Origin: a virus
Length of the DNA: 41,897 nucleotides
Direction: 5' to 3' (one strand)
Virus record (IMG/VR): IMGVR_UViG_3300007276_000098
Span: 1-41,897 of that record
Shown here: in pieces, positions 28,584-39,150 of the stretch
Layout: each line of letters begins with the position of its first letter
How positions within the stretch are numbered: position 1 is the stretch's first letter
Position numbers and translations under genes: made by a program
Notes under the pieces: model-generated
Database searches by the model: none
Told to the model about the DNA's origin: nothing
What the model saw: the letters and a program-made list of their open reading frames with translations, nothing else

Positions 28584-28904
28584 TCAGAAGAGCTCGGAGA
28601 CGGCTTCTTCGATCTCGTTCATGCGGCCGTTGTAGACAGCCGCGAAACCGGCCTTGAACTCGTCAGAGGCAAGGACGTCGTTAAGGTTCAGGCTGGGGGA
28701 AGCGGTCTTCTCGGCGGCCTCCACAACGGGAGCCTCCTCGACTACGGCCTCGGGAGCCTTAGGGGCCTCCTCAGCTACTTCTTCGAAGAGCTCAGCGGTG
28801 GCCTCCTCAAGCTGGGGGTCAGCGGATGCTACCTTGGCGAAGGGGTTACCCGCGTCAAGAATGCCGGCAAGCCGGTCTTGGAGTGAAAGTTCTGCGTTAG
28901 ACAT
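28584..28904 (-). CDS. Small acidic Ala/Glu-rich protein with KxA motifs, 106 aa
   Basis: The protein is low in complexity. Residues 31-65 are almost entirely Glu, Ala, Pro and Val, and are flanked by two copies of the head-protein motif (FAKVAS at residues 22-27 and AEKTAS at 64-69). Short helices occupy both ends. An AAGG site precedes the start. Acidic linkers bracketed by the motif would be released if the motif is a protease site. I do not recognise a family; it could be a chaperone-like or internal protein of the neck region. Confidence 0.6.
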   Translation of the reverse strand: MSNAELSLQDRLAGILDAGNPFAKVASADPQLEEATAELFEEVAEEAPKAPEAVVEEAPVVEAAEKTASPSLNLNDVLASDEFKAGFAAVYNGRMNEIEEAVSELF

Positions 28905-28906
28905 AT

Positions 28907-29773
28907 CTAATACCTTGTTTGATCAAAAGAGGAATAGTTAAAAGCCTCGCCGTCAGTGCTAGACACCAGACGTTGAGGTGAGTATTTGCGGATAAGCACG
29001 GGGTCCAGCTTATCAATCTCGGGGATGGGGATGTTGTGTTCAACGTCCGTGGACTGTAGGCCGTACCCTAGGGCGTCCTGTCCGATTAGCATACGGCTCT
29101 TCTCGGACGGCGTAACCGCCTGTACCTTGTAGCGGCGGCCCGCGTCGATCTCATATACCACATCCCCGGGGCGAAGTACCGGATAATTTGACATCATTAG
29201 CTCTACGATGGTCTCCTGCTCGATACGCTCCCCTACCTGGTTCTGCTTGGCCTCTACCCCAACCTGAGCCAGTGTGAGGATGGGTGAGTAATAACCAGAC
29301 AGGAATCCCGTACCGTAGCATGTGCCGCAGTCCGACACGGTGCTCTTGCGGAGGACCGCGTCCCAGCAGGAGCATCGCTGCCCTGCCGCGAGGTAGGGAT
29401 AGACGAGCACGGGAATACCGGCCAGGCGCAGGTACGTGTTCCGGTGCTTAACCAGCCCGGCTGCAATACTGTCGTTAACACCTTCGAGGCGTACGACTCC
29501 GTAGCCCTGGGTGATGCCGTCAGATACCAGATCGAGTTTGTAGTAGTAAACTGACCAGCGGTTCAGCAGGTCAACATCTTCATCAAAGAACCAGCCCTTG
29601 AGGGCCGGGACAGTGGCAATCTGCTCGAAGCCACTGTCCGGGGATGCCGACCGCCACACCTTAACCTTCGCGGCGGCCGGCTCTGCTACGCCAAACGGAA
29701 TGAATCGCCAACCAACAATCTGAGCTTTGTTGGTTTGCTTAGCAACTACGATTCCATCTAGCTTTCCTGCCAT
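28907..29773 (-). CDS. Virion protein with FnIII-like N-terminus and zinc-type cysteine cluster, 288 aa
   Basis: The first 100 residues read as a fibronectin type III-like beta sandwich (a Trp, repeated strands and a YYYKLDLV strand). The centre holds a cysteine cluster, CSCWD then SDCGTCYGTGF, resembling a DnaJ-type zinc site. The C-terminal part (about 190-288) is a small beta domain (PGDVVYEIDAGRRYKVQAV). Such combinations occur in phage neck or baseplate proteins. The start is in a 1-base overlap with the previous stop. Role within the virion cannot be fixed. Confidence 0.55.
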   Translation of the reverse strand: MAGKLDGIVVAKQTNKAQIVGWRFIPFGVAEPAAAKVKVWRSASPDSGFEQIATVPALKGWFFDEDVDLLNRWSVYYYKLDLVSDGITQGYGVVRLEGVNDSIAAGLVKHRNTYLRLAGIPVLVYPYLAAGQRCSCWDAVLRKSTVSDCGTCYGTGFLSGYYSPILTLAQVGVEAKQNQVGERIEQETIVELMMSNYPVLRPGDVVYEIDAGRRYKVQAVTPSEKSRMLIGQDALGYGLQSTDVEHNIPIPEIDKLDPVLIRKYSPQRLVSSTDGEAFNYSSFDQTRY

Positions 29774-30729
29774 CAGCGGTTACCCAACAGGCGGTCGATG
29801 CCCGCACCCATCTTGTCGGCGTTCTTCTTAGCCTTGGCCGACGCCTTGGCTCCCTCGGAGAGGGACTTACCGGCCAGCGAAACTGCGTTTCGGCGACCCT
29901 GGGTACCCGGCAGAAGCGCGTGAGCAACAGCGGACTCTGCGCCGCGGGCCGCACCGCGAACGACGCCCTTGGCCTTTGACTTGTGCATGTCTACGCGAGC
30001 GCCAAACGCCTTGTCGAGGGCCTTCGCCCTGACCTTACTTCCGGGCTTTCTCTTGGCGGCGTCCTCATGGGCGGCCATATGTCGCGCAGAGGCCCTACGC
30101 TCGTCCCTGAAATCGCTCCCGGACCCGCGGCGATAGCCTTCCGAGGCCGAATCCGAGACTCGCGAGGCGAGGCCTTTGAGCCGATCCATGCGGCTACCGC
30201 GGCCAGCGGCCTCAATGCCCTTACCCGCGGCGTAGAGCTGTGCGCGGCCCGACGGGACGGCGCCAGTCTTAACCTGACCGTCGATCTTACCGGCGGTACG
30301 GCTCTTCAGGCCCTTAGAGAATCCCGAAACGCCCCGGTCAGCGGCGTCCATGACATTGCCGACGACCTGACCTACGACGCCCTTGACCTTGCCCTTTTTG
30401 TGGTCCAGCATCTTGCCGGCCTTACGGCTCTTCATGAACGAGCCGAGGATGCCATGGCCAGCGGAACGGCGGCTTTGGTAAACCCTTCGAGCAAGAGCGC
30501 CCTTCTCTTCCCTACGTCGCTGTTTGCGGTAGGTCTGGGTCATCTTGTCCAGACCTTGAGCGGCCTGAACGCCCGTACTGACGCGCTCCCCCACGGTTGG
30601 CTTACGGGCCGGCTGCTGCTGCTGCTGGACCTGCTGGTTCTGGACCTGCTGGTTCTGTGGCATTGCCTGCATCTGCTGATAGGCCAGCTTAATGATGGCC
30701 TGGGCAGTTTCTTTGTTGTGCTCAGTCAT
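29773..30729 (-). CDS. Very basic, Gln-rich N-terminus protein, 318 aa
   Basis: After a short helix, residues about 20-45 are a glutamine tract with Asn, Val and Pro. From residue 60 to the end the protein is dominated by Lys, Arg, Ala, Gly and Ser with almost no acidic or aromatic residues, like a histone-type or ribosomal tail. I see no enzyme motif. A DNA-binding virion protein, or an internal protein ejected with the genome, is the most natural reading, but this is inference. The ribosome binding site is AAGAAG. It overlaps the glycine-zipper gene by 8 bases. Confidence 0.6.
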   Translation of the reverse strand: MTEHNKETAQAIIKLAYQQMQAMPQNQQVQNQQVQQQQQPARKPTVGERVSTGVQAAQGLDKMTQTYRKQRRREEKGALARRVYQSRRSAGHGILGSFMKSRKAGKMLDHKKGKVKGVVGQVVGNVMDAADRGVSGFSKGLKSRTAGKIDGQVKTGAVPSGRAQLYAAGKGIEAAGRGSRMDRLKGLASRVSDSASEGYRRGSGSDFRDERRASARHMAAHEDAAKRKPGSKVRAKALDKAFGARVDMHKSKAKGVVRGAARGAESAVAHALLPGTQGRRNAVSLAGKSLSEGAKASAKAKKNADKMGAGIDRLLGNR

Positions 30730-31177
30730 TGGTCTTCTTAAGGTTAAGGTGTCCCGATCCGGGTAGAAGTGTAGTTACGGCAGTAGCCATTGCCGGAGGC
30801 AGCAGCAATGCCGGGAGAGGACTGGGCAACGAAGCGTCCACTCCCTTATCTTTGAGGTAATTCTTGTTTGCTTTAGACTGGCCCAACAGCTGCCCGATGG
30901 GGAAACCGTAGCCTGCGCCAGCGATAGCGCCGACCCCAGCCAGGCCCATAGGACCGCCAAGGGCAGCTCCGAGCAGACCCAGGAGGATACCGGTCTGTAC
31001 GGCACCCTTAAGGCCCTCAGCGGCACGAGCCTGGATAAGGTCCGTATCAGCGAGCAGAGGCGACGCCTCGTTCGAAGTGAGCGATCGGGCGTGGTCCATG
31101 CGAGAGAAGTACGCCTTAGCGTCTTCCATCGCGGCGGACTTAGACCAGCTCTCGAAGATTAGTGTGGAGTTTCGCAT
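30722..31177 (-). CDS. Glycine-zipper membrane-type protein, 151 aa
   Basis: Residues about 56-97 form a long Gly/Ala/Leu segment with repeated small residues (for example LLGLLGAALGGPMG and AGVGAIAGAGYGF), able to form one or two membrane helices packed by glycine zippers. A second hydrophobic stretch rich in Pro and Leu lies near residues 115-140. The N-terminus carries one head-type motif (WSKSA, K13). In the virion module such proteins are often internal proteins that insert in the host envelope during DNA entry. That role is inference; a holin is less likely because no lysis gene is nearby. Confidence 0.55.
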   Translation of the reverse strand: MRNSTLIFESWSKSAAMEDAKAYFSRMDHARSLTSNEASPLLADTDLIQARAAEGLKGAVQTGILLGLLGAALGGPMGLAGVGAIAGAGYGFPIGQLLGQSKANKNYLKDKGVDASLPSPLPALLLPPAMATAVTTLLPGSGHLNLKKTND

Positions 31178-31713
31178 CAGTAGGTGACTACCAGGTAGCC
31201 GTCGCGCTGGTCATAGTTGCCCATGTACAGCTCAGAGTGTGTAACGCCGTAGGCCGACTCAGAGTTCTTGGCAATCTTATAGCGATCCCGGAACTCGCGG
31301 TACTGAATCTCGATGTCCTGAATGATGGGCTGTAGGTTACGCCATACGCTGTTAGGCTGGATGGTTACGTTACCAGCCGTGTAGGGCATGTCGTTACGGG
31401 CCAGCTTCATGAGTACGGACTTCATAGCCCGGGCGGCTGTCGCGTCCACAATCCACTTACGGCACCCACCCAGGGTAGGTGACTTAACCAGACTAACGGG
31501 GTTAATCGTAGCTGCCGGTGTCAGGGGCGGAGTGTAGTTCCAGTCGTCAACCATATCAACCAGGAAGCGGCCGAGCTGCATGTCCGACGTCTCCTCACCC
31601 TCGAAGATCTCATTGACCTCCGGGTAGTCTTGGATAAGACGGCGGACCTGACGGATCAGCTGCTTAGGGACGATTACTCCGTCCTCTCCCTGGTTGACAA
31701 AGTTGTCAGACAT
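31177..31713 (-). CDS. Head-tail connector (adaptor) candidate, 178 aa
   Basis: The N-terminal part reads as the helical pattern of phage head-tail adaptors: LIRQVRRLIQDYPE, an acidic loop, DMQLGRFLVDMVDDWN and then PPLTP. The C-terminal half has a further helix bundle and a short beta end. It follows the capsid genes after a gap of one gene, where connector proteins are expected. Gene order and this pattern support the call, but no residue proves it. Its start lies 3 bases after the preceding stop without its own clear binding site. Confidence 0.45.
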   Translation of the reverse strand: MSDNFVNQGEDGVIVPKQLIRQVRRLIQDYPEVNEIFEGEETSDMQLGRFLVDMVDDWNYTPPLTPAATINPVSLVKSPTLGGCRKWIVDATAARAMKSVLMKLARNDMPYTAGNVTIQPNSVWRNLQPIIQDIEIQYREFRDRYKIAKNSESAYGVTHSELYMGNYDQRDGYLVVTY

Positions 31714-31716
31714 CTA

Positions 31717-32196
31717 TCAGGCGAAGGGGTCGACGTCCTTGGGCTCCTCAGGAGCAGGGGCGGGGGCGCCTGTGGGCTCCTCGTCGGCACCAGCATCAAG
31801 CGGCATAGGCTTGGGTGTGGTCTTTTTCTTCTTAGTAGTTTTCTTAGGGGCCGGGGCCTCCTCGATGGTTTCTGCTTTCGGAGCCACTTCTTCCTTGACT
31901 ACTACCTTGGGAGCAGCCTTCTTGGTGAGACCAAAGAACTCTTCGACGGCCGGAGTGACGGGGCAGCTCGCGGCAAGGGAGGAAGGGGCAGCGACGGTAA
32001 GCATCTCCAGGGAGACGTCAGATCCGCACCACTCAAGGGCGAGGCCAGGCGTGTCCAGAATAAGGAGGCTGCGGCCGTATGCGTTCATGCGAACGTCTGT
32101 GAGACGGTTGGCTGCTACGATACGCGCCTTTCCGGGCTTAACCCCGAGGCTGCGAATGCTGATCGAACGGCAGCTGTATACTTTCTTGTTGTTCAT
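31717..32196 (-). CDS. Hypothetical virion-module protein with Lys/Pro/Glu-rich tail, 159 aa
   Basis: The first 90 residues form a small folded domain with several cysteines. Residues 95-159 are a low-complexity tail of Lys, Thr, Pro, Ala and Glu, ending in DVDPFA. It is the first gene after the capsid terminator, and its ribosome binding site (AGGAT) lies in a 12-base palindrome (32,205-32,216). The acidic, Pro-rich tail would suit a linker or interaction arm; the family is not recognised. Confidence 0.6.
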   Translation of the reverse strand: MNNKKVYSCRSISIRSLGVKPGKARIVAANRLTDVRMNAYGRSLLILDTPGLALEWCGSDVSLEMLTVAAPSSLAASCPVTPAVEEFFGLTKKAAPKVVVKEEVAPKAETIEEAPAPKKTTKKKKTTPKPMPLDAGADEEPTGAPAPAPEEPKDVDPFA

Positions 32197-32204
32197 AGTG
32201 TTTA

Positions 32205-32216
32205 TCCTGCGCAGGA
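32205..32216 (-). promoter_or_regulatory. 12-base palindrome over a ribosome binding site
   Basis: TCCTGCGCAGGA is a perfect inverted repeat. On the - strand its right half supplies the AGGA of the ribosome binding site for the gene that starts at 32,196. It could be a protein-binding site or a small RNA fold that hides the site. The only other element nearby is the terminator three bases away. Confidence 0.4.
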
Positions 32217-32218
32217 GT

Positions 32219-32258
32219 AAAAATAGGGGCAGAAGGCAATAACCCTCTGCCCCTATTA
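32219..32258 (-). terminator. Intrinsic terminator of the major capsid gene
   Basis: A perfect 12-bp stem (32,223-32,234 with 32,247-32,258) has a 12-base loop. On the - strand it is followed by TTTTTA, so it ends the capsid transcript about 30 bases after the capsid stop codon. The genes downstream must then be read by partial read-through or from another promoter, which would set capsid levels above those of the neck and tail genes. Confidence 0.85.
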
Positions 32259-32266
32259 GTTTAGCG

Positions 32267-32281
32267 GCTAGAAACTAGCCC
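32267..32281 (-). other. Small hairpin between capsid stop and terminator
   Basis: GGCTAG (32,267-32,272) pairs with CTAGCC (32,276-32,281) around an AAA loop. It lies in the short 3' untranslated region of the capsid gene, before the terminator hairpin. It may slow ribonucleases or form part of the terminator. Confidence 0.4.
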
Positions 32282-32288
32282 GGCTAGA

Positions 32289-33518
32289 TCAGGCTACCGT
32301 CGGTGCCGAGGTGCCGTTGTTGGTGAGCGTGAACTCGCCAGAAACGTTCATGGCCGTACCGCCGTCCTCGTGGAACAGGTTCGGGAGCTTAACGGAAGCG
32401 CCGACGAGCAGTGCCATGCCGAGACCCTTAACGTTACCGAAGCCAACGCCGCACTCTTCCCATGCTTCCATGTTGAAGAAACGACCTTCCTTGTTGATGT
32501 AGAACTGTGTGTTCTGCAGAACGAGGAAGCGACCCAGGAACTCAGGAGCGGGGAAGACGTAGATCTGACCCGGCTCAAGGATTGCTGCGTTGTCACGGAT
32601 CGTCGTGACGTAGGTGTAGCCACCGACAGTGGTGTACTTGTACCCACCGACGACGATTTCCTTGACGATCTCAAGACCAGCTTCCTGATCCGTCCACGCG
32701 AGGTGGTCGGCCCAGTCGAACTCGTGCATGAGAATGACGCGTGCCTTGACCTGGCGTGCTGCACAGATCTTGACAAGCGAAGCGAGAACCTCACGGTTGA
32801 AGGAGGTCTCCAGCGACAGAAGAATGTTGCTGTAGAACCCGTCGACCGGGGCGGCGCTTGCGGCGATCGTGGTGCCGTTAGCGCCAGCGGAAGCCTGAGT
32901 AATCTCGCCGGAGGCAAGGTAAGCAGCGAAGAGCGAAGCGCTACGGAAGTTCTTGCCCTTAACGTCGGCGGCGCCAACGGTCACGGCGGTAGTGGCGGAG
33001 GCGTCAGCGACGCGGCCAGCGTCAACGAGCTCGTTCTTACGAGCGATCGTTGCGAACATAAGGCCGATGCGGACGTGCTCCATGAACTTAACGTCCATCT
33101 GCTCCTGGATGTCCTTAACCGTGTTCTGCTCGATGACCTTGGTCAGCGGCATACGGTAAGAACGAAGCTCCTGCTCGGTCTTCTGGAAACGATCGGAGGT
33201 GATCGTCTGCATACGGATCGCGTAGCGGGGTGCCTGGATGTAGGTCTTGTCCGGCTCGCCACGCATGTTGATGCGCATGGCGATCGAGTCCGGCTCGAGG
33301 TCGTCGATGTAGACGAGAGACTCGTCAGAAACGTTGCGTGTCAGTTCAGCAACTGTAACCGTCTGGGGCGGAAGGATCCGGCGAGCAAACGAGTTCTCGC
33401 GGAGCTTCTCTTGGATGTAGAGGCCTGTGACCTCAGCAACCTTATCGAGATGCTCCCCACCACGGCTCAGTGCCTCACCGAACATGTCGTTGAATTCTTT
33501 ACCATCAATCGGGTTCAT
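32289..33518 (-). CDS. Major capsid protein (HK97-fold type), 409 aa
   Basis: I assign the major capsid from size, position and content. It follows protease, core-like genes and a decoration candidate, has the strongest ribosome binding site (CAGGAG) and a strong codon bias, and is framed by a leader and a terminator. Residues about 80-180 (YIQAPRYAIRMQTITSDRF and onward) look like the long strand and spine helix of the fold, and residues 255-400 like the A and P domains. Near the N-terminus LDKVAEV (K26) matches the motif found throughout the head proteins and may mark the end of a removed N-terminal piece. Confidence 0.82.
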   Translation of the reverse strand: MNPIDGKEFNDMFGEALSRGGEHLDKVAEVTGLYIQEKLRENSFARRILPPQTVTVAELTRNVSDESLVYIDDLEPDSIAMRINMRGEPDKTYIQAPRYAIRMQTITSDRFQKTEQELRSYRMPLTKVIEQNTVKDIQEQMDVKFMEHVRIGLMFATIARKNELVDAGRVADASATTAVTVGAADVKGKNFRSASLFAAYLASGEITQASAGANGTTIAASAAPVDGFYSNILLSLETSFNREVLASLVKICAARQVKARVILMHEFDWADHLAWTDQEAGLEIVKEIVVGGYKYTTVGGYTYVTTIRDNAAILEPGQIYVFPAPEFLGRFLVLQNTQFYINKEGRFFNMEAWEECGVGFGNVKGLGMALLVGASVKLPNLFHEDGGTAMNVSGEFTLTNNGTSAPTVA

Positions 33519-33559
33519 AATTAACTCCTGGTGTTCAGGGGGCTAGAGAGTAGTGTTAT

Positions 33560-33578
33560 CCTCAGAAAAAGTCCGAGG
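33560..33578 (-). promoter_or_regulatory. Hairpin in the capsid leader
   Basis: On the - strand CCTCGGA pairs with TCTGAGG (one G-U pair) around CTTTT. It lies about 40 bases upstream of the capsid start, within a 131-base gap. It could be a 5' stabiliser for the capsid mRNA. No clear sigma70 promoter is seen in the gap; a promoter for the phage sigma factor could lie there. Confidence 0.4.
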
Positions 33579-33604
33579 TATTGGGGGTATGTATGTAGTG
33601 TAGG

Positions 33605-33636
33605 TAGGTGACCAGCCCCTGAGGACCAGTCACCTA
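33605..33636 (-). other. Hairpin upstream of the capsid leader
   Basis: TAGGTGAC (33,605-33,612) pairs with GTCACCTA (33,629-33,636) with a 16-base loop that can itself fold weakly. It lies directly after the stop of the decoration-protein candidate. No T-run follows on the - strand, so termination there would be weak; an mRNA processing site that separates the capsid message is another option. Confidence 0.45.
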
Positions 33637-33649
33637 GTTAGCCAGTCGA

Positions 33650-34144
33650 TCAGGCGATGGTCTGAACCATCGGGAGCGAGAAGAAGCAGAAGAACGCCTT
33701 GCCGCCCGAGATACGCTCGATGCGGCCGTAGTAGCGTGCGCCTGCAACGGCGGCCGCGACACCGTCGAACTTGCCAGCGTCGATAGCGACAAAGTCGCCA
33801 ACGCCGGGAAGAACGCCGTCGGCCCAGGAATCAGCCGGGAGGCCGATGTCTACGCCGTTACCGCGGATACCGGAGAGCATGCCGCTCTCGGTGTTGCGTG
33901 CGGCCAGGTCGTCCTGGAACGCGTCGCCCTGCTCAGACATAACGTCCGAACGGGTCGAGTCTACGAAGTTGACGTAGCAGGGGTCGCCTGTCGTCGGGAC
34001 AGCGGCGTAGCCCCCGGACCCGAAGGCTACCGGAGCGCCCTCAAGGAATACCGTGGAGCCGTCGGTGGGGATGGACTGAAGGTTGATCGAGGAGATCTTG
34101 GCGTTCATGCCGACCTTAGTCGAAGTTTTACGGAAACGGGCCAT
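33650..34144 (-). CDS. Capsid decoration or head-stabilising protein candidate, 164 aa
   Basis: The protein is Gly/Ala-rich and beta-rich, with a basic N-terminus and no Cys motif beyond two isolated cysteines. The gene lies immediately upstream of the major capsid gene, the common position of decoration proteins in many tailed phages. The central segment contains GVGDFVAIDAGKFDG, which reads like the beta tulip core of such proteins. The call rests on position and composition. It starts 1 base after the preceding stop. Confidence 0.5.
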   Translation of the reverse strand: MARFRKTSTKVGMNAKISSINLQSIPTDGSTVFLEGAPVAFGSGGYAAVPTTGDPCYVNFVDSTRSDVMSEQGDAFQDDLAARNTESGMLSGIRGNGVDIGLPADSWADGVLPGVGDFVAIDAGKFDGVAAAVAGARYYGRIERISGGKAFFCFFSLPMVQTIA

Positions 34145-34145
34145 G

Positions 34146-34496
34146 TTACTTTACCAGTGTAGTAAGTGTGTTGAACAGTCGAGCCTCAGGATCATCTGAG
34201 GACGCTGTTTTAGAGATTTCAGAGCTGTTGGTCAGGCGACCCAGGCTAATTCCGCCCGAGCGCATCTCTACAGCTTTCTTGTATACTTGAAGGGACTCCG
34301 GAGAGGCCGTGAACTCCGCGGTCTTCTCGATGATATCGTCCGGGTCGATCTGGCCGTTAGCTACAAGGTTCATTACCTCATAGACAACGGCCAGTTCGAC
34401 CTGTACAGCGGCCGCCTTGACCAGAGCTTCGTCCTTGAGGGCGAGCTCGGCCATGGCTTCCTTAATCAGAGAATCGTCAACAGAGACTAACGTCAT
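34146..34496 (-). CDS. Small helical head-assembly protein with KxA motifs, 116 aa
   Basis: A helical, Ala/Glu/Val-rich protein carrying four copies of the head motif: LIKEA (K12), LVKAA (K27), IEKTA (K58) and ISKTA (K96). Motif spacing divides the protein into pieces of 15 to 40 residues. Genes of this size between prohead protease and capsid are usually scaffold or internal core proteins, and those of T4 are cut up during maturation. No family is recognised. Its start overlaps the stop of the preceding gene by 1 base. Confidence 0.6.
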   Translation of the reverse strand: MTLVSVDDSLIKEAMAELALKDEALVKAAAVQVELAVVYEVMNLVANGQIDPDDIIEKTAEFTASPESLQVYKKAVEMRSGGISLGRLTNSSEISKTASSDDPEARLFNTLTTLVK

Positions 34497-34699
34497 TACG
34501 CAGAGAGGATGTCGTAGGCCATAAGCATCTTGGCTACTGCCAAGCGACTGTTAGGCTCGTTGTTAGGAGTCTCGAGCGACTCCGCAAGCTTACTCACCAG
34601 CTCGCTGCTAGAGGAGGTTTCTTGCGAAGTGTTGTTTGTGTTAACCTCGGGAGCAGCGCAGGCTGCTTTCACGAGGTCTTCCATGTCAGAGAAAAGCAC
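34496..34699 (-). CDS. Very small head-assembly protein, 67 aa
   Basis: This short protein starts with GTG (34,699), preceded by GAGGTAACC as ribosome binding site; an ATG five codons on is an alternative. A Ser/Thr/Asn-rich stretch (residues about 20-33) separates two helices. It carries LVKAA (K11) and VSKLA (K37). It sits in the middle of the core-protein series. Function unknown. Confidence 0.55.
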   Translation of the reverse strand: MLFSDMEDLVKAACAAPEVNTNNTSQETSSSSELVSKLAESLETPNNEPNSRLAVAKMLMAYDILSA

Positions 34700-34710
34700 T
34701 AAGGGTTACC

Positions 34711-35226
34711 TCAGCCTTCTTCGGACATGATCTCGGCAGTCATCTCGGCGAGAAGCTCAGCGAACTGGGCTGCGTCGTCTTCGGGGCCGCTGGCTACCTT
34801 CTCGATGTCGTCGGCCGTGATGCCAATGGCACCAAGCTCCTGACCGAGACGATGGGCGAGGACGTAGTTGGCCTCGAGGGCGGCCTCAGCCTCCTTGTCA
34901 AGGTCGCCTTCTTCGTCGACCTCTTCCGAGACCTCCTCAGCAGCTTCCTCAGCGGGGGCTTCCTCGGACTCTTCCGAAAGCTCCTCGGCGATCTTCTCCA
35001 GGGTCTGCTCGGTGAGCTCAACGCCCATCGAGAGAAGCTGGCTGGCCGAGAGGCCCTCGTCGCCGAAGCCGCCGTCGGCAGCCTCTTTCTCAAGCTCGCC
35101 CATGGCGTCGCTCAGGATATCAAGTGCCAGGTCGCTTTCGGCGTAAGCCTCGGTGACCGTAGCAATCTTGGCCTGAAGCTCAGCAGCCTCAAGCTCGACT
35201 TTAATGTCTGTAAGTCGCTTGTTCAT
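34711..35226 (-). CDS. Acidic scaffold/core-like protein with five KxA motifs, 171 aa
   Basis: The protein is almost wholly helical and extremely acidic, with residues about 80-120 a run of Glu, Ala and Asp. It carries QAKIA (K20), LEKEA (K47), LEKIA (K78), LDKEA (K111) and IEKVA (K143), spaced about every 30 residues. Composition and position just upstream of the capsid genes fit a scaffolding or core protein that is removed by proteolysis before DNA packaging. I chose ATG 35,226 because the longer frame upstream runs through the next gene. A weak purine site precedes the start. Confidence 0.65.
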   Translation of the reverse strand: MNKRLTDIKVELEAAELQAKIATVTEAYAESDLALDILSDAMGELEKEAADGGFGDEGLSASQLLSMGVELTEQTLEKIAEELSEESEEAPAEEAAEEVSEEVDEEGDLDKEAEAALEANYVLAHRLGQELGAIGITADDIEKVASGPEDDAAQFAELLAEMTAEIMSEEG

Positions 35227-35257
35227 GATTAAATCAGGGGGGTTGGGGTAGAACGGA

Positions 35258-35662
35258 TCAGCCGAGGTTGCGCTGCTTGTTGACCGTGCCCTTGGCACCG
35301 GAGAGGGCGTTGTCCTGCTCGGCACGGACGCTGGTGTCGTCACCCGGCTTGAGGGCACGACCATGCGTACCGGCAAGGCGAGCAGCAACTGCTTCCCAGC
35401 GGCTGCGGGGCGAAGCGATCGGAACTTCCGAACCAGCGCCAGCGGCGGGAACGGCAGCGGCGATCTTCTCCAGAACGGAGTCGACGAAGGAGTTAGCGAG
35501 GATCTCGCCACCGGCCCGAAGGTCCTCGGCGATCTTCTCATGGTCCTCGACGGCCAGGGCGGCCTCGGGGGTCTCGGTCATGTCGACGGCTGCAGCGACC
35601 TTCTCGGTCTCCTGAGCGAGGGAGCTGAACAGCGCCTCAAGGTCGTTGTTGTAGTCAGTCAT
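35258..35662 (-). CDS. Head-assembly protein with KxA motifs, 134 aa
   Basis: Residues 1-72 are helical and acidic and contain TEKVA (K21), HEKIA (K43) and LEKIA (K66). The last 60 residues are basic, Arg/Gly/Ala-rich and probably disordered (PRSRWEAVAARLAG and beyond). Division into an acidic motif-bearing half and a basic half recalls an internal protein with a removable propeptide. The start at ATG 35,662 has GAGGT as ribosome binding site; the longer frame upstream overlaps the protease gene. Confidence 0.6.
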   Translation of the reverse strand: MTDYNNDLEALFSSLAQETEKVAAAVDMTETPEAALAVEDHEKIAEDLRAGGEILANSFVDSVLEKIAAAVPAAGAGSEVPIASPRSRWEAVAARLAGTHGRALKPGDDTSVRAEQDNALSGAKGTVNKQRNLG

Positions 35663-35673
35663 TGGGTTATACC

Positions 35674-37086
35674 TCAGTGAGTAAGTAGTGGGTTGAAACG
35701 CGATGCGGCAGCTACGAAAGGAAGCCAGGGACGATCCGATTGGTTCGCCGGGTTCACACCCGCAACCTTGAACAGACAGTTGTCGAAGTTCAGGCTGACC
35801 TGAGCGACTGGAGACGTATCCACCCACTCCGCTAGTTTGCTAAAATCAATTGATGTTAGGTAACTGCAGTACTGAGTGAATGCCTCAGAGCCGCTACCAG
35901 GGTTAGTCCGCGTCACCGCCGGGGCCGAAGCCTCTTTAGTGAAGAACGGATCATGGAAAGAACGCTTTTCGATGAAGGGCTCGAGAGCCTGAACGACCTT
36001 ACGGTCAACATCGTCAAGTGTGAAACTGTCCGGGAAATCCCCAGGGCAGCTACTAGATAGTTTAGTCACCTCTGTGGGCTTAAGAAGCATACCCATAGAT
36101 GTCATGGATGCAAGTACTTTCTTTAGCTTGTATCCCTTCACGGCCTTGACTAGTGCCGGGTTGGGGGCGCAGCTCTGATACTTGTCCCGGGCCTTGCTCA
36201 TGATAAAGCTCAGCACCTTAGGATCTACCGGAGCGGATCCCAGCGACTTACCCATAGCGGGCTCTTCTTTGACCATATCCGCGACCTTATCAAAGTTGGT
36301 TCTAGAAGGAAGAACCGCCTGTGTAAGGCCCGTGGAGGCCACTTTCTTCAGTCCCCAAGCACTCCGGTCAGCCGGTGTGGTGACGTAAGAGATGTCAAAG
36401 AATCGGGGAAAGAAGTTGTAGGCGAAGACCCGACGGCCGTCCGGCATGCTACGGCCCATAAGGCTCGTCAGGTGCTCACAGTACTCGGCTCGTGTGCGGG
36501 CGCAATTCAGGCAGATCGAGCAGGTATCCGTTACAAGCTTAGCTCCCATAGAAAAGGGCACGGGCTCACCCGAGTCAATTTTCTGAATTAGTTCGGGATT
36601 TCTTGCCTCGTAGACAAATACGATGAGCTCGACTCGGTGCATCTTGTCGTTATATGCCGAGGCAATAACGTCGCCGATGGACTTGGTCGGGTCATTATTA
36701 GCGTGCCCTACGTATACGTGAGCAAAGTCTACGAAGGTCTTGTGTCCGTATCGGCCCATAGGGACCTGGAACATAGGAAGCTTCGGCTTGATCTTGTGCT
36801 TGATGATGTCCTGGACTTCCTTGGGGGGCGGATCGCCCTTCAGGCTCCACTCAGGGAAAGCATCTCCGTTGCGGTTAACACCCCAGTACTCGTGGGCACC
36901 CAGGGCGTTAAGGAGAATGTAGCGGCCCTCAGGACGGGGCTTGAGCTTCTCCATGGTCTCGACCAGGCTGTCCGGTGTGTAGCACGCGGAAGCAACCTTG
37001 GTAAGGGTCTGGGAGTGTACGGATACGTACTCCGGCCCCCAACCATCGGTGCAGCCACCGAGGTCAATGATCTTCTCAAAACCCAT
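35674..37086 (-). CDS. Prohead protease with long C-terminal extension, 470 aa
   Basis: The N-terminal part (about residues 50-240) has the features of the herpesvirus/T4-type prohead protease group. The segment GVNRNGDAFPEW is followed by GHANNDPTKSIGDV with H128, then by PFSMGAK with S179, a good candidate nucleophile. Next comes a cysteine cluster (C189, C192, C195, C203). After the protease part, 230 residues form a helical extension that may act as internal scaffold. Six KxA motifs (K30, K248, K267, K384, K417, K440) flank the protease core, suggesting that it processes itself. It would degrade the inner core and trim capsid proteins before packaging. AGGAAGG precedes the start. Confidence 0.75.
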   Translation of the reverse strand: MGFEKIIDLGGCTDGWGPEYVSVHSQTLTKVASACYTPDSLVETMEKLKPRPEGRYILLNALGAHEYWGVNRNGDAFPEWSLKGDPPPKEVQDIIKHKIKPKLPMFQVPMGRYGHKTFVDFAHVYVGHANNDPTKSIGDVIASAYNDKMHRVELIVFVYEARNPELIQKIDSGEPVPFSMGAKLVTDTCSICLNCARTRAEYCEHLTSLMGRSMPDGRRVFAYNFFPRFFDISYVTTPADRSAWGLKKVASTGLTQAVLPSRTNFDKVADMVKEEPAMGKSLGSAPVDPKVLSFIMSKARDKYQSCAPNPALVKAVKGYKLKKVLASMTSMGMLLKPTEVTKLSSSCPGDFPDSFTLDDVDRKVVQALEPFIEKRSFHDPFFTKEASAPAVTRTNPGSGSEAFTQYCSYLTSIDFSKLAEWVDTSPVAQVSLNFDNCLFKVAGVNPANQSDRPWLPFVAAASRFNPLLTH

Positions 37087-37997
37087 CAGCCTTCCTGACC
37101 GGCGGAGGTCCTGAGGTCGCGTAGACGCCGGACTGGCTTAGCCAGGTCCTCAGCCCTGCGCAGTCGCGGACCGGGAGGCATGGGGTTCGTGACCCCACCG
37201 AGGATATCATAGTTCTTCAGCACAGCCTGTGCGTGCTCTTGTTCACGCTTAGCAGCCTGGGCGGCCTGCCGCTGGCCGGACAGATCATTGGTCTGCTGAA
37301 TCATCTGCTTCGTCTCAGCATTAGCCCTATCGGTTCGGTTCGTCTGGATTGTATTGTAGGCCGCTCCGAGCTGATCGACACTACTGGCAACGTCCTTCAG
37401 GTTTTGGCGTACGTCCGGGCGGTACTTGTTACGGTCAGAGATCTCCTTCTGGGTCGTGGCCAGCTCCTTGACCATGTTGATGTCGGCAGCGGCCGGACCC
37501 ATGCGGTGCATACGCACCAGGGCGTTAGCGGCTACAGGCTTGCTGGCGGCTACGTCCGGAGCAAACGAACGCAGAACCTGGAAGTTCTGGCGGGTCTGCA
37601 TGGCGTTGGCCTCTTCACCCAGCATCGGGTGTTGTTGCATAGCGTGCTGCATGGCAGCCTCGTGTGACTTACGGCCGCGGATGGCGTTTACCGCCTGGAT
37701 GGCCAGAGGGGCAAGGCCCGCAAGCGCACCTGCAACAGCAGTACCTGCCATAATCTTCTCGCTGGTGCTCATCGCGGCGGTCTTCTCGTGACTCGTAACG
37801 ATGGCTACCAGGTGAGCCACTTTGACGAAGTCCTCCGGATCGCACATGCCGCTCATGGCCTCTTTGACCAGAACGTCCTGCTGCCCCGTACCGCGTGCGG
37901 TGGTCAGGGCTGCGGCGAACTTAGCCAAGTCTTGGTGCTCGGCCGCGCTAAGGTCACCTACAAGGCAATCTTTGAATGTTTCGTAGAGGTTGGACAT
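37086..37997 (-). CDS. Internal head protein candidate with membrane-type helix, 303 aa
   Basis: The first 75 residues hold four head motifs (LAKFA K26, LVKEA K45, FVKVA K59, HEKTA K72). They are followed at once by a hydrophobic Gly/Ala segment (about 84-107, MAGTAVAGALAGLAPLAIQA) able to span a membrane. The rest is helical, with much Gln, Ala and Met, and probably coiled. An N-terminal motif-bearing region before a membrane-type helix could be a propeptide. A role as internal or ejection protein is inferred. It lies between terminase and protease, where many phages have the portal, but it does not look like one. Confidence 0.55.
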   Translation of the reverse strand: MSNLYETFKDCLVGDLSAAEHQDLAKFAAALTTARGTGQQDVLVKEAMSGMCDPEDFVKVAHLVAIVTSHEKTAAMSTSEKIMAGTAVAGALAGLAPLAIQAVNAIRGRKSHEAAMQHAMQQHPMLGEEANAMQTRQNFQVLRSFAPDVAASKPVAANALVRMHRMGPAAADINMVKELATTQKEISDRNKYRPDVRQNLKDVASSVDQLGAAYNTIQTNRTDRANAETKQMIQQTNDLSGQRQAAQAAKREQEHAQAVLKNYDILGGVTNPMPPGPRLRRAEDLAKPVRRLRDLRTSAGQEG

Positions 37998-37998
37998 A

Positions 37999-39150
37999 TC
38001 AGACAGTGCTGGTCGGGTTGTTGGAGACGGATTGTTTAATGCCCCTATTCACATGATCGCGGGCCTTAGCGGCTGCGACGCCGCCAGTAGTTAGGGCGGC
38101 GGTAGTTACCCCAGTCACCGCGGCCCTCGGCCCGAAAGTCTTCAGGGCAGCCTTGATTTCACCCCGGGCCTCCTTGACGTGCTCGGCGCTAGTTTGCTCC
38201 TGGTCGCACATGGTTCGGCAGGCGCTATAGACGCTATCCAGAGTGTGGCAGAGGTAATCAGATACTGCCTGGTTGCTCTTCAGCGAGCTCTCAGCAACCA
38301 GGGCGGCTGAGGCCAGGCTGTCCAGCTCGTTGAACGTGCGGTCAAGCTCATATGTGCTGTTGATGCGGGAACCGATGGCCTTGACTTCCTTGGCGATCGG
38401 GGAGGCCCCGTTCACTACCGTAACTTCGGGCTCCGGGACGTTGCCGCCCGAACGCTTGAACGTCTCGGACTTAAGCTCTTTGTCGCTAGCCATTACGCCT
38501 GTAAAGGGGTGGCCCAGCTTCTCAAGCTCGGAGGCGACCTTCTCAAACACTACGTCAACAACCTTGTCGTTGTCCATGTCGACTGCGTGTGCGCACTTCT
38601 TGATATCCTCGTAGGGGTAACGGCCGTTGATCATGTACTCCTTGACAGTCTGGGTCAGGGAGGAGATGTCCTCGGAAAGCTTCTTAAGCTCGCCGACTTT
38701 CTTAGCAGAAACCTTCTTTTTGTGAGCCCCGCAGGTAGCGGCGATCTTATGGAGGGTATCGCAGGCCGTGCGGAGGCGACGGTCCTGCTCTTCGGGGGAG
38801 CCGTCAGCGGCCCAGGCTGTCAGGTTAGCACCGACCCCGGTATCCGGGTTGAGGTCACGAACGGCAGAGGCCACCTTTGCCAGGGGAGCACCCTCGCTTT
38901 GGCGGCCGTCAAGGATTTCGAGTACGGAGTCGAGGCTCCCGAGATCGAATGTGTACGTCTTATCCGATGCGGTCTTGCGCAGGATGTCGTTTGTTGCGTG
39001 GTTCACGGCGGATACAAGGCCTTGAATCTGTACGCGGCTAAGGTCATTATCCTCAGCGTGCTTGGCGATCTGTTCGTTCAGATCAGAGCTATCCATTACG
39101 TAGCCCTGAGCCAGACGGTTCGCCAGAATCTGTGTCTCAAACGAGTTCAT
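37999..39150 (-). CDS. Helical head protein with six KxA motifs, 383 aa
   Basis: The first 210 residues contain six copies of the motif: IAKHA (K30), LRKTA (K59), LAKVA (K92), LHKIA (K135), IKKCA (K185) and FEKVA (K204). The remaining 170 residues contain none of the strong form and end in a Gly/Ala/Val-rich hydrophobic helix (about 345-365) and a basic tail. This split suggests a removable N-terminal half and a stable C-terminal half. No family is recognised and no portal signature is visible. No ribosome binding site is clear. The gene has its own leader with a -10-like element. Confidence 0.6.
   Translation of the reverse strand: MNSFETQILANRLAQGYVMDSSDLNEQIAKHAEDNDLSRVQIQGLVSAVNHATNDILRKTASDKTYTFDLGSLDSVLEILDGRQSEGAPLAKVASAVRDLNPDTGVGANLTAWAADGSPEEQDRRLRTACDTLHKIAATCGAHKKKVSAKKVGELKKLSEDISSLTQTVKEYMINGRYPYEDIKKCAHAVDMDNDKVVDVVFEKVASELEKLGHPFTGVMASDKELKSETFKRSGGNVPEPEVTVVNGASPIAKEVKAIGSRINSTYELDRTFNELDSLASAALVAESSLKSNQAVSDYLCHTLDSVYSACRTMCDQEQTSAEHVKEARGEIKAALKTFGPRAAVTGVTTAALTTGGVAAAKARDHVNRGIKQSVSNNPTSTV

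Follow-up and report, generated by a model that had tools for sequence, protein, structure and literature searches.

The question raised by the viral record IMGVR_UViG_3300007276_000098 is why the short pattern hydrophobic-x-Lys-x-Ala (h-x-K-x-A), with a hydrophobic residue two positions before the lysine, recurs in its head-assembly proteins. The stretch analysed here, hereafter the window, comprises positions 1 to 41,897 of that record (41,897 nucleotides), and the proteins concerned are encoded on its minus strand between 28,584 and 39,150. An earlier note, made from the sequence alone, had proposed that the pattern is a prohead protease signal. Our comparison with related sequences supports that proposal: with a probability of about 0.87, h-x-K-x-A is the recognition site of the prohead protease of this phage group, a predicted new specificity. 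Both the modelled protease fold, shared with T4 gp21 and the herpesvirus proteases, and the mature N-terminus of the Bacillus phage G capsid, which aligns directly after the motif alanine, favored this reading.

The head-region set consisted of 11 proteins (2,628 amino acids). With corrected starts for the genes at 34711..35226 and 35258..35662, it contained 41 K-x-A sites, 31 of which were h-x-K-x-A, close to the approximately 35 and 30 counted by eye in the earlier note. The gene-by-gene counts of that note also mostly agreed with ours, except that the gene at 34146 has five sites, not four; the hydrophobic residue was absent from two of the three sites in the gene at 35258 and from one site each in those at 28584, 37086, and 34711. 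Composition shuffles of the 11 proteins gave 5.6±2.3 h-x-K-x-A (maximum 16 in 1,500 shuffles) against the 31 observed. Shuffles that kept the hydrophobic/small/polar class pattern gave 6.5±2.4 (maximum 15 in 2,000), and dipeptide-preserving shuffles gave 7.1±2.5. The other 9,806 amino acids of the window contained 18 h-x-K-x-A against 16.0 expected, which is the chance level; the contrast drawn in the earlier note was real, whereas its figure of about 4 in some 4,200 residues was a slight undercount. R-x-A, E-x-A, K-x-G, K-x-S, and the reversed motif showed no enrichment in the head-region proteins of the window, and h-x-E was in slight excess both in these proteins (67 against 54.5 expected) and, to a similar degree, in other proteins (221 against 195), the strong signal being K-x-A. 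The difference between the head region and the rest of the window is thus real and specific to lysine and alanine. Because the pattern was unenriched with Arg or Glu in place of Lys, with Gly or Ser in place of Ala, or when reversed, neither composition nor helix periodicity explains it. The same test applied to T4 core proteins recovered (L/I)xE (31 against 12.7 shuffled, P below 1/3,000), whereas the T4 non-substrates gp18, gp19, and gp20 were at the chance level (16 against 12.3).

Relatives of the window protease were found in viral contigs, in Vibrio phages D69, D181, and D148, and in Salmonella phage Arash; Bacillus phage G and the cluster C mycobacteriophages are more remote. All viral-contig loci with a related protease had an excess of h-x-K-x-A, with observed-to-expected ratios of 2.2-6.3 (median 3.4) in 61 largely distinct loci. 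K-x-A ranked first or second among enriched gapped residue pairs in 28 of the loci tested, the window included. A whole-genome count, which the earlier note had suggested as a check, was made in Arash using annotated coding sequences over about 100 amino acids. The non-structural proteins contained 42 h-x-K-x-A against 43 expected, and the excess was led by head-cluster proteins: gp220 (9 against 0.8), gp223 (8 against 0.8), gp225 (6 against 0.6), and the protease gp222 (6 sites against 1.0), besides which gp242 stood out (8 against 1.2). Vibrio phage D69 showed a pattern like that of Arash. In the cluster C mycobacteriophages, as in other remote relatives of the protease, the motif was unenriched, and these were therefore ruled out as further members of the group.

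Across 1,834 sites, the flanks favored L/M/F/I at -2, E/V/Q/T at -1, and T/V/Q/I at +1 relative to the lysine. At +3, the residue after the alanine, Ser was enriched 3.5-fold, together with E, A, and G, and P, I, K, R, and L were depleted. The best form of the motif was [EGD]-[LMFI]-[EVQT]-K-[TVIQ]-A-[SAEG]. Proteins with fewer than three sites carried 214 of them within residues 1-30 against 44 expected (5-fold), the ratio falling to approximately 1 beyond residue 50, and these N-terminal copies showed a similar preference for a small residue after the alanine. Among the proteins with such a copy are the multi-subunit RNA polymerase beta-type proteins of D69 (L009:685-5268) and Arash (L017:30093-34670), of about 1,525 amino acids and identified by Pfam Rpb2/Rpb1 domains, which start with MPKKAS and MPKSAS, respectively. 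The Arash protein is the most abundantly detected virion protein (PMC10585845).

The head maturation protease of the window (35674..37086; 470 amino acids; phrog_18299, E 4e-9) carries motif sites at K30, K248, K267, K384, K417, and K440, with residues 31-247 free of sites. K30-V-A32 (36991..36999) marks the end of a predicted N-terminal propeptide, with the cut expected after A32; both K30 and A32 were conserved in 46/46 aligned orthologs at a mean column identity of 33%. K248-V-A250 (36337..36345), directly after the catalytic domain, was conserved at 84% for K and 84% for A across 51 orthologs, and the sites further C-terminal turned over. Every protease relative with an intact N-terminus had a K-x-A near residues 24-42, before the catalytic domain (at 208 in one relative, whose gene model has an N-terminal extension), and most had a further K-x-A about 20 residues past the conserved FFDIS, just after the domain. 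An AlphaFold2 model, built with the viral-contig relatives, had a mean predicted local distance difference test score of 75.9, mostly >90 for residues 41-240; sites 30, 267, and 384-440 lay in or near low-confidence stretches. Residues 48-251 of the model matched the varicella-zoster virus (VZV) protease (Z 9.9, root mean square deviation 2.6, 114 residues) and T4 gp21 (Z 9.7, 2.8, 129 residues; VIA-align), with other herpesvirus proteases ranking lower; Foldseek alone was weak (best E 0.04, to T4 gp21). H128 and S179 were invariant across 40 relatives, and D231 and D187 are candidates for the third catalytic residue. On the model, the window protease is a serine protease of the herpesvirus/T4-gp21 fold. 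Pfam gave no informative match for the window head proteins, and no relative came up when PDB sequences were searched by profile; this relation is visible by fold alone. The order core proteins, protease, core proteins, capsid was shared by the window, Arash, D69, and loci L004-L007.

Two further features of the protease genes were observed. A conserved C-x2-C...C-x-H cluster, possibly a zinc ribbon, lies at residues 187-206, between the catalytic Ser and FFDIS, and similar Cys residues occur in the cluster C and phage G homologs. In some relatives the gene is interrupted by inteins with LAGLIDADG/Hint domains (Pfam): two in L006:5142-8837, which is the same contig as L029:6142-9837, and probably one each in L030:7684-10296 and L031:8974-11541.

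The major capsid protein (32289..33518; 409 amino acids; phrog_2522 major head protein) has the HK97 fold (Foldseek HK97 capsid, E 3.4e-8). Its motif, K26-V-A28 (33435..33443), stands at the end of a predicted N-terminal propeptide, supported by capsid conservation and by alignment with phage G gp27, with the cut predicted at A28/E29. K-x-A was present within residues 9-42 in 34/38 dereplicated capsids against 5.4 expected by shuffling, and only 10 h-x-K-x-A were found in 10,374 amino acids past residue 60. In one lineage the site had shifted from about residue 25 to 17 and the old position was lost, indicating that the motif rather than its flank is conserved; the earlier note had suggested just this as a check in related genomes, where it was borne out by shifting positions in divergent proteins. 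As substitutes in lineages whose capsid Ala is lost, K-x-G and K-x-S were mostly unenriched, reaching at most about 2-fold in a few. Residues 10 and 13 of the propeptide form a near-invariant N-x-x-F (N in 36/38, F in 37/38), a candidate core-binding element that would leave with the propeptide.

The likely position of the bond comes from phage G, whose capsid protein gp27 has 282 residues (31.2 kDa) and is found in a mature form of 255 residues (28.2 kDa) by N-terminal sequencing (Hua et al. 2017, PMC5646251, Table 1). Given an intact C-terminus, these lengths place the cut after A27, and residues 28-282 have a computed mass of 28.17 kDa. An hhalign profile alignment of the group capsids with gp27 (E 5.6e-16) set A25-L26-A27/Q28 opposite K26-V27-A28/E29 of the window. 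Because the mature N-terminus of phage G aligns exactly there, the scissile bond most likely lies directly C-terminal to the alanine, with Ala at P1, Lys at P3, a hydrophobic residue at P5, and Ser, Ala, Glu, or Gly at P1'. A cut after the lysine at the same site (h-x-K/x-A) is suggested by analogy with T4 (L/I)-x-E, because the hydrophobic residue two before the lysine, the strongest flank preference, would then occupy P3 as it does in T4. We consider this unlikely: the phage G mature N-terminus follows the equivalent of the alanine, not of the lysine, an Ala so nearly invariant would be an unusual requirement at P2', and the flank preferences reach past the alanine to the Ser at +3.

Slightly less probable still is a role in docking or capsid targeting, in which the core or the protease would bind the motif as a signal and the motif would not, or not only, be cleaved. 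Such a role would suit a short, repeated motif, which many single-site proteins carry at residues 3-12 (e.g., MEKQAS, or MPKSAS of the Arash virion RNA polymerase), where a cut would take off just a few residues. Against it, the motif flanks the protease domain of the window and stays outside it, the capsid site coincides with the measured phage G cut, and the N-terminal copies share the small-residue preference after the alanine. The two roles need not conflict, since the T4 protease itself removes the targeting peptide (PMC7411985). The copies at residues 3-12 mean that the motif may also act as an entry tag, and we put forward tentatively that one element of five to six residues combines two functions, those of a minimal head-entry tag and of the protease site; at residues 3-30 it would direct proteins unrelated to the scaffold, the virion RNA polymerase among them, into the prohead and would then itself be cut. 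A compositional or coiled-coil bias would be natural in helical, charged scaffold-like proteins rich in Lys and Ala. We regard it as very improbable, since composition-, class-, and dipeptide-preserving shuffles never reached the observed count, the related patterns were unenriched, and the capsid and protease hold single conserved sites; as a full explanation it was refuted by the shuffles and the Arash genome count.

Several observations weigh against h-x-K-x-A as the protease site. Four of the 38 dereplicated capsids had no K-x-A in residues 9-42, and in the capsid model K26-A28 falls within residues 22-42, which are predicted to be helical. The phage G capsid site is A-L-A; being without Lys, it fixes the position and P1 Ala, not P3 Lys. 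A processed N-terminus has been published for no phage of the group proper. In the Arash virion table, which reports coverage and peptide counts (PMC10585845), core proteins appear at high "coverage" (gp223 100%, gp220 96%), values that, if read literally, speak against their being fully shredded. The 80% given for gp225 from 2 unique peptides does not fit easily with residue coverage in the ordinary sense, and the few unique peptides of the core proteins (gp220 6, gp225 2, gp223 9, against 30 for the capsid) fit core loss but do not show it. Finally, AxE of phage SPN3US was not significantly enriched in the same test (35 against 28, P 0.10), so that enrichment is no necessary mark of a protease site.

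From the enrichment, specificity, conservation, and placement of h-x-K-x-A and from the protease fold, we infer the following course of processing. The protease precursor would be built into the prohead core and would use the h-x-K-x-A sites in its own chain to shed the N-terminal propeptide and the C-terminal tail. Core or scaffold proteins would be cut at many sites into fragments that leave before DNA packaging, the first 28 or so capsid residues would be removed, and short N-terminal peptides would be taken off internal proteins.

To our knowledge, few prohead-protease specificities have been described, with cleavage after Glu in the well-mapped cases of the gp21 type. The HK97 and lambda head proteases differ again in specificity. 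The window system resembles that of T4 gp21 in protease fold, in having sites in the capsid N-terminus, core proteins, and protease, and in the repeats in core proteins. It differs in a predicted need for Lys and Ala, with no Glu, and in an enzyme with the conserved Cys/His cluster and a long C-terminal region. With phiKZ gp175 and SPN3US gp245 (MEROPS S80; SxE, AxE) it shares two specified residues one apart. Those enzymes cleave capsid, portal, and internal proteins, and the protease is autoprocessed (PMC5694885, PMC7411985); in SPN3US gp245 self-trimming is confined to the C-terminus, but every window-group relative with an intact N-terminus also has an N-terminal site. The prohead proteases of T4, phiKZ, 201phi2-1, and SPN3US all cleave after Glu (PMC5694885), and the literature searched contained no report of a KxA or an Ala-directed motif for a prohead protease. 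A different specificity is supported, although the "third specificity" of the earlier note was loosely worded, as (L/I)xE of T4, SxE of phiKZ, and AxE of SPN3US already make three motifs. In phage G, the capsid is homologous and is cut after Ala at the bond that aligns, and the protease, gp19, has 32% identity to that of locus L065 and carries sites LVKTA43, LEKVAS248, and LLKIAS274; enrichment in this phage is weaker (10 h-x-K-x-A against 3.7), mostly in the protease. The closest solved fold is the herpesvirus maturational protease (assemblin), represented by VZV, whose consensus is (V/L/I)-x-A/S, cut between Ala and Ser. The window-group site is closer to this in P1 and P1' than to the Glu sites, but assemblin requires neither the P3 Lys nor the P5 hydrophobic residue, comes from a eukaryotic virus, and shares 10% sequence identity.

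The remaining head-region genes encode core-like or candidate internal proteins. Core-like proteins generally had many motif copies at positions that shifted between orthologs. The largest (37999..39150; 383 amino acids) has 6 h-x-K-x-A and 2 further K-x-A; in its 50 orthologs K30 and A32 were 72 and 82% conserved at 17% mean column identity. Next to it, a 303-amino-acid protein (37086..37997) has 3 h-x-K-x-A and HEKTA. Beyond the protease gene lie a small core-like protein of 134 amino acids (35258..35662; start corrected to MTDYNNDLEALF) with 3 K-x-A, 1 with the hydrophobic residue; an acidic one of 171 amino acids (34711..35226; start corrected to MNKRLTDIK) with 5 K-x-A, 4 of them h-x-K-x-A; one of 67 amino acids with 2 sites (34496..34699); and one of 116 amino acids with 5 sites (34146..34496), whose 29 orthologs are nearly all K-x-A-rich at shifting positions. 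Past the capsid gene, a glycine-rich internal/ejection-like protein (30722..31177) has WSKSA/A at residue 13, a site kept in 3/3 orthologs (WLKSA, FLKQA, MLKHA). A basic candidate internal protein (29773..30729), for which the ortholog search found none, has IIKLA/Y at residue 14. A 106-amino-acid protein (28584..28904) has FAKVA/S at residue 24 and AEKTA/S at residue 66, and its sole ortholog, in L029, has FAKVAS26, IMKHAA69, and FAKIAG94. In several single-site proteins, including that at 30722-31177 and many small proteins of related loci, glycine/alanine-rich hydrophobic stretches follow the N-terminal motif, a sequence feature that suggests membrane-active ejection proteins. An unannotated large protein of 577-672 amino acids with 9-10 h-x-K-x-A (L004:987-2720, L005:830-2596, L007:1050-3068) possibly belongs to the portal or the core; it lies upstream in the head region, outside the end of the window.

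A Lys/Ala specificity across this large, mostly uncultivated group of myoviruses would mean that a substrate motif and its protease can evolve in concert toward a different chemistry with the system intact. For genomes made up largely of "hypothetical" genes, the short pattern would be a usable marker of substrates, of internal or ejected proteins, and of mature N-termini; Salmonella phage Arash represents the group in culture. If the motif is indeed both entry tag and protease site, the internal proteome of these phages would be readable directly from sequence.

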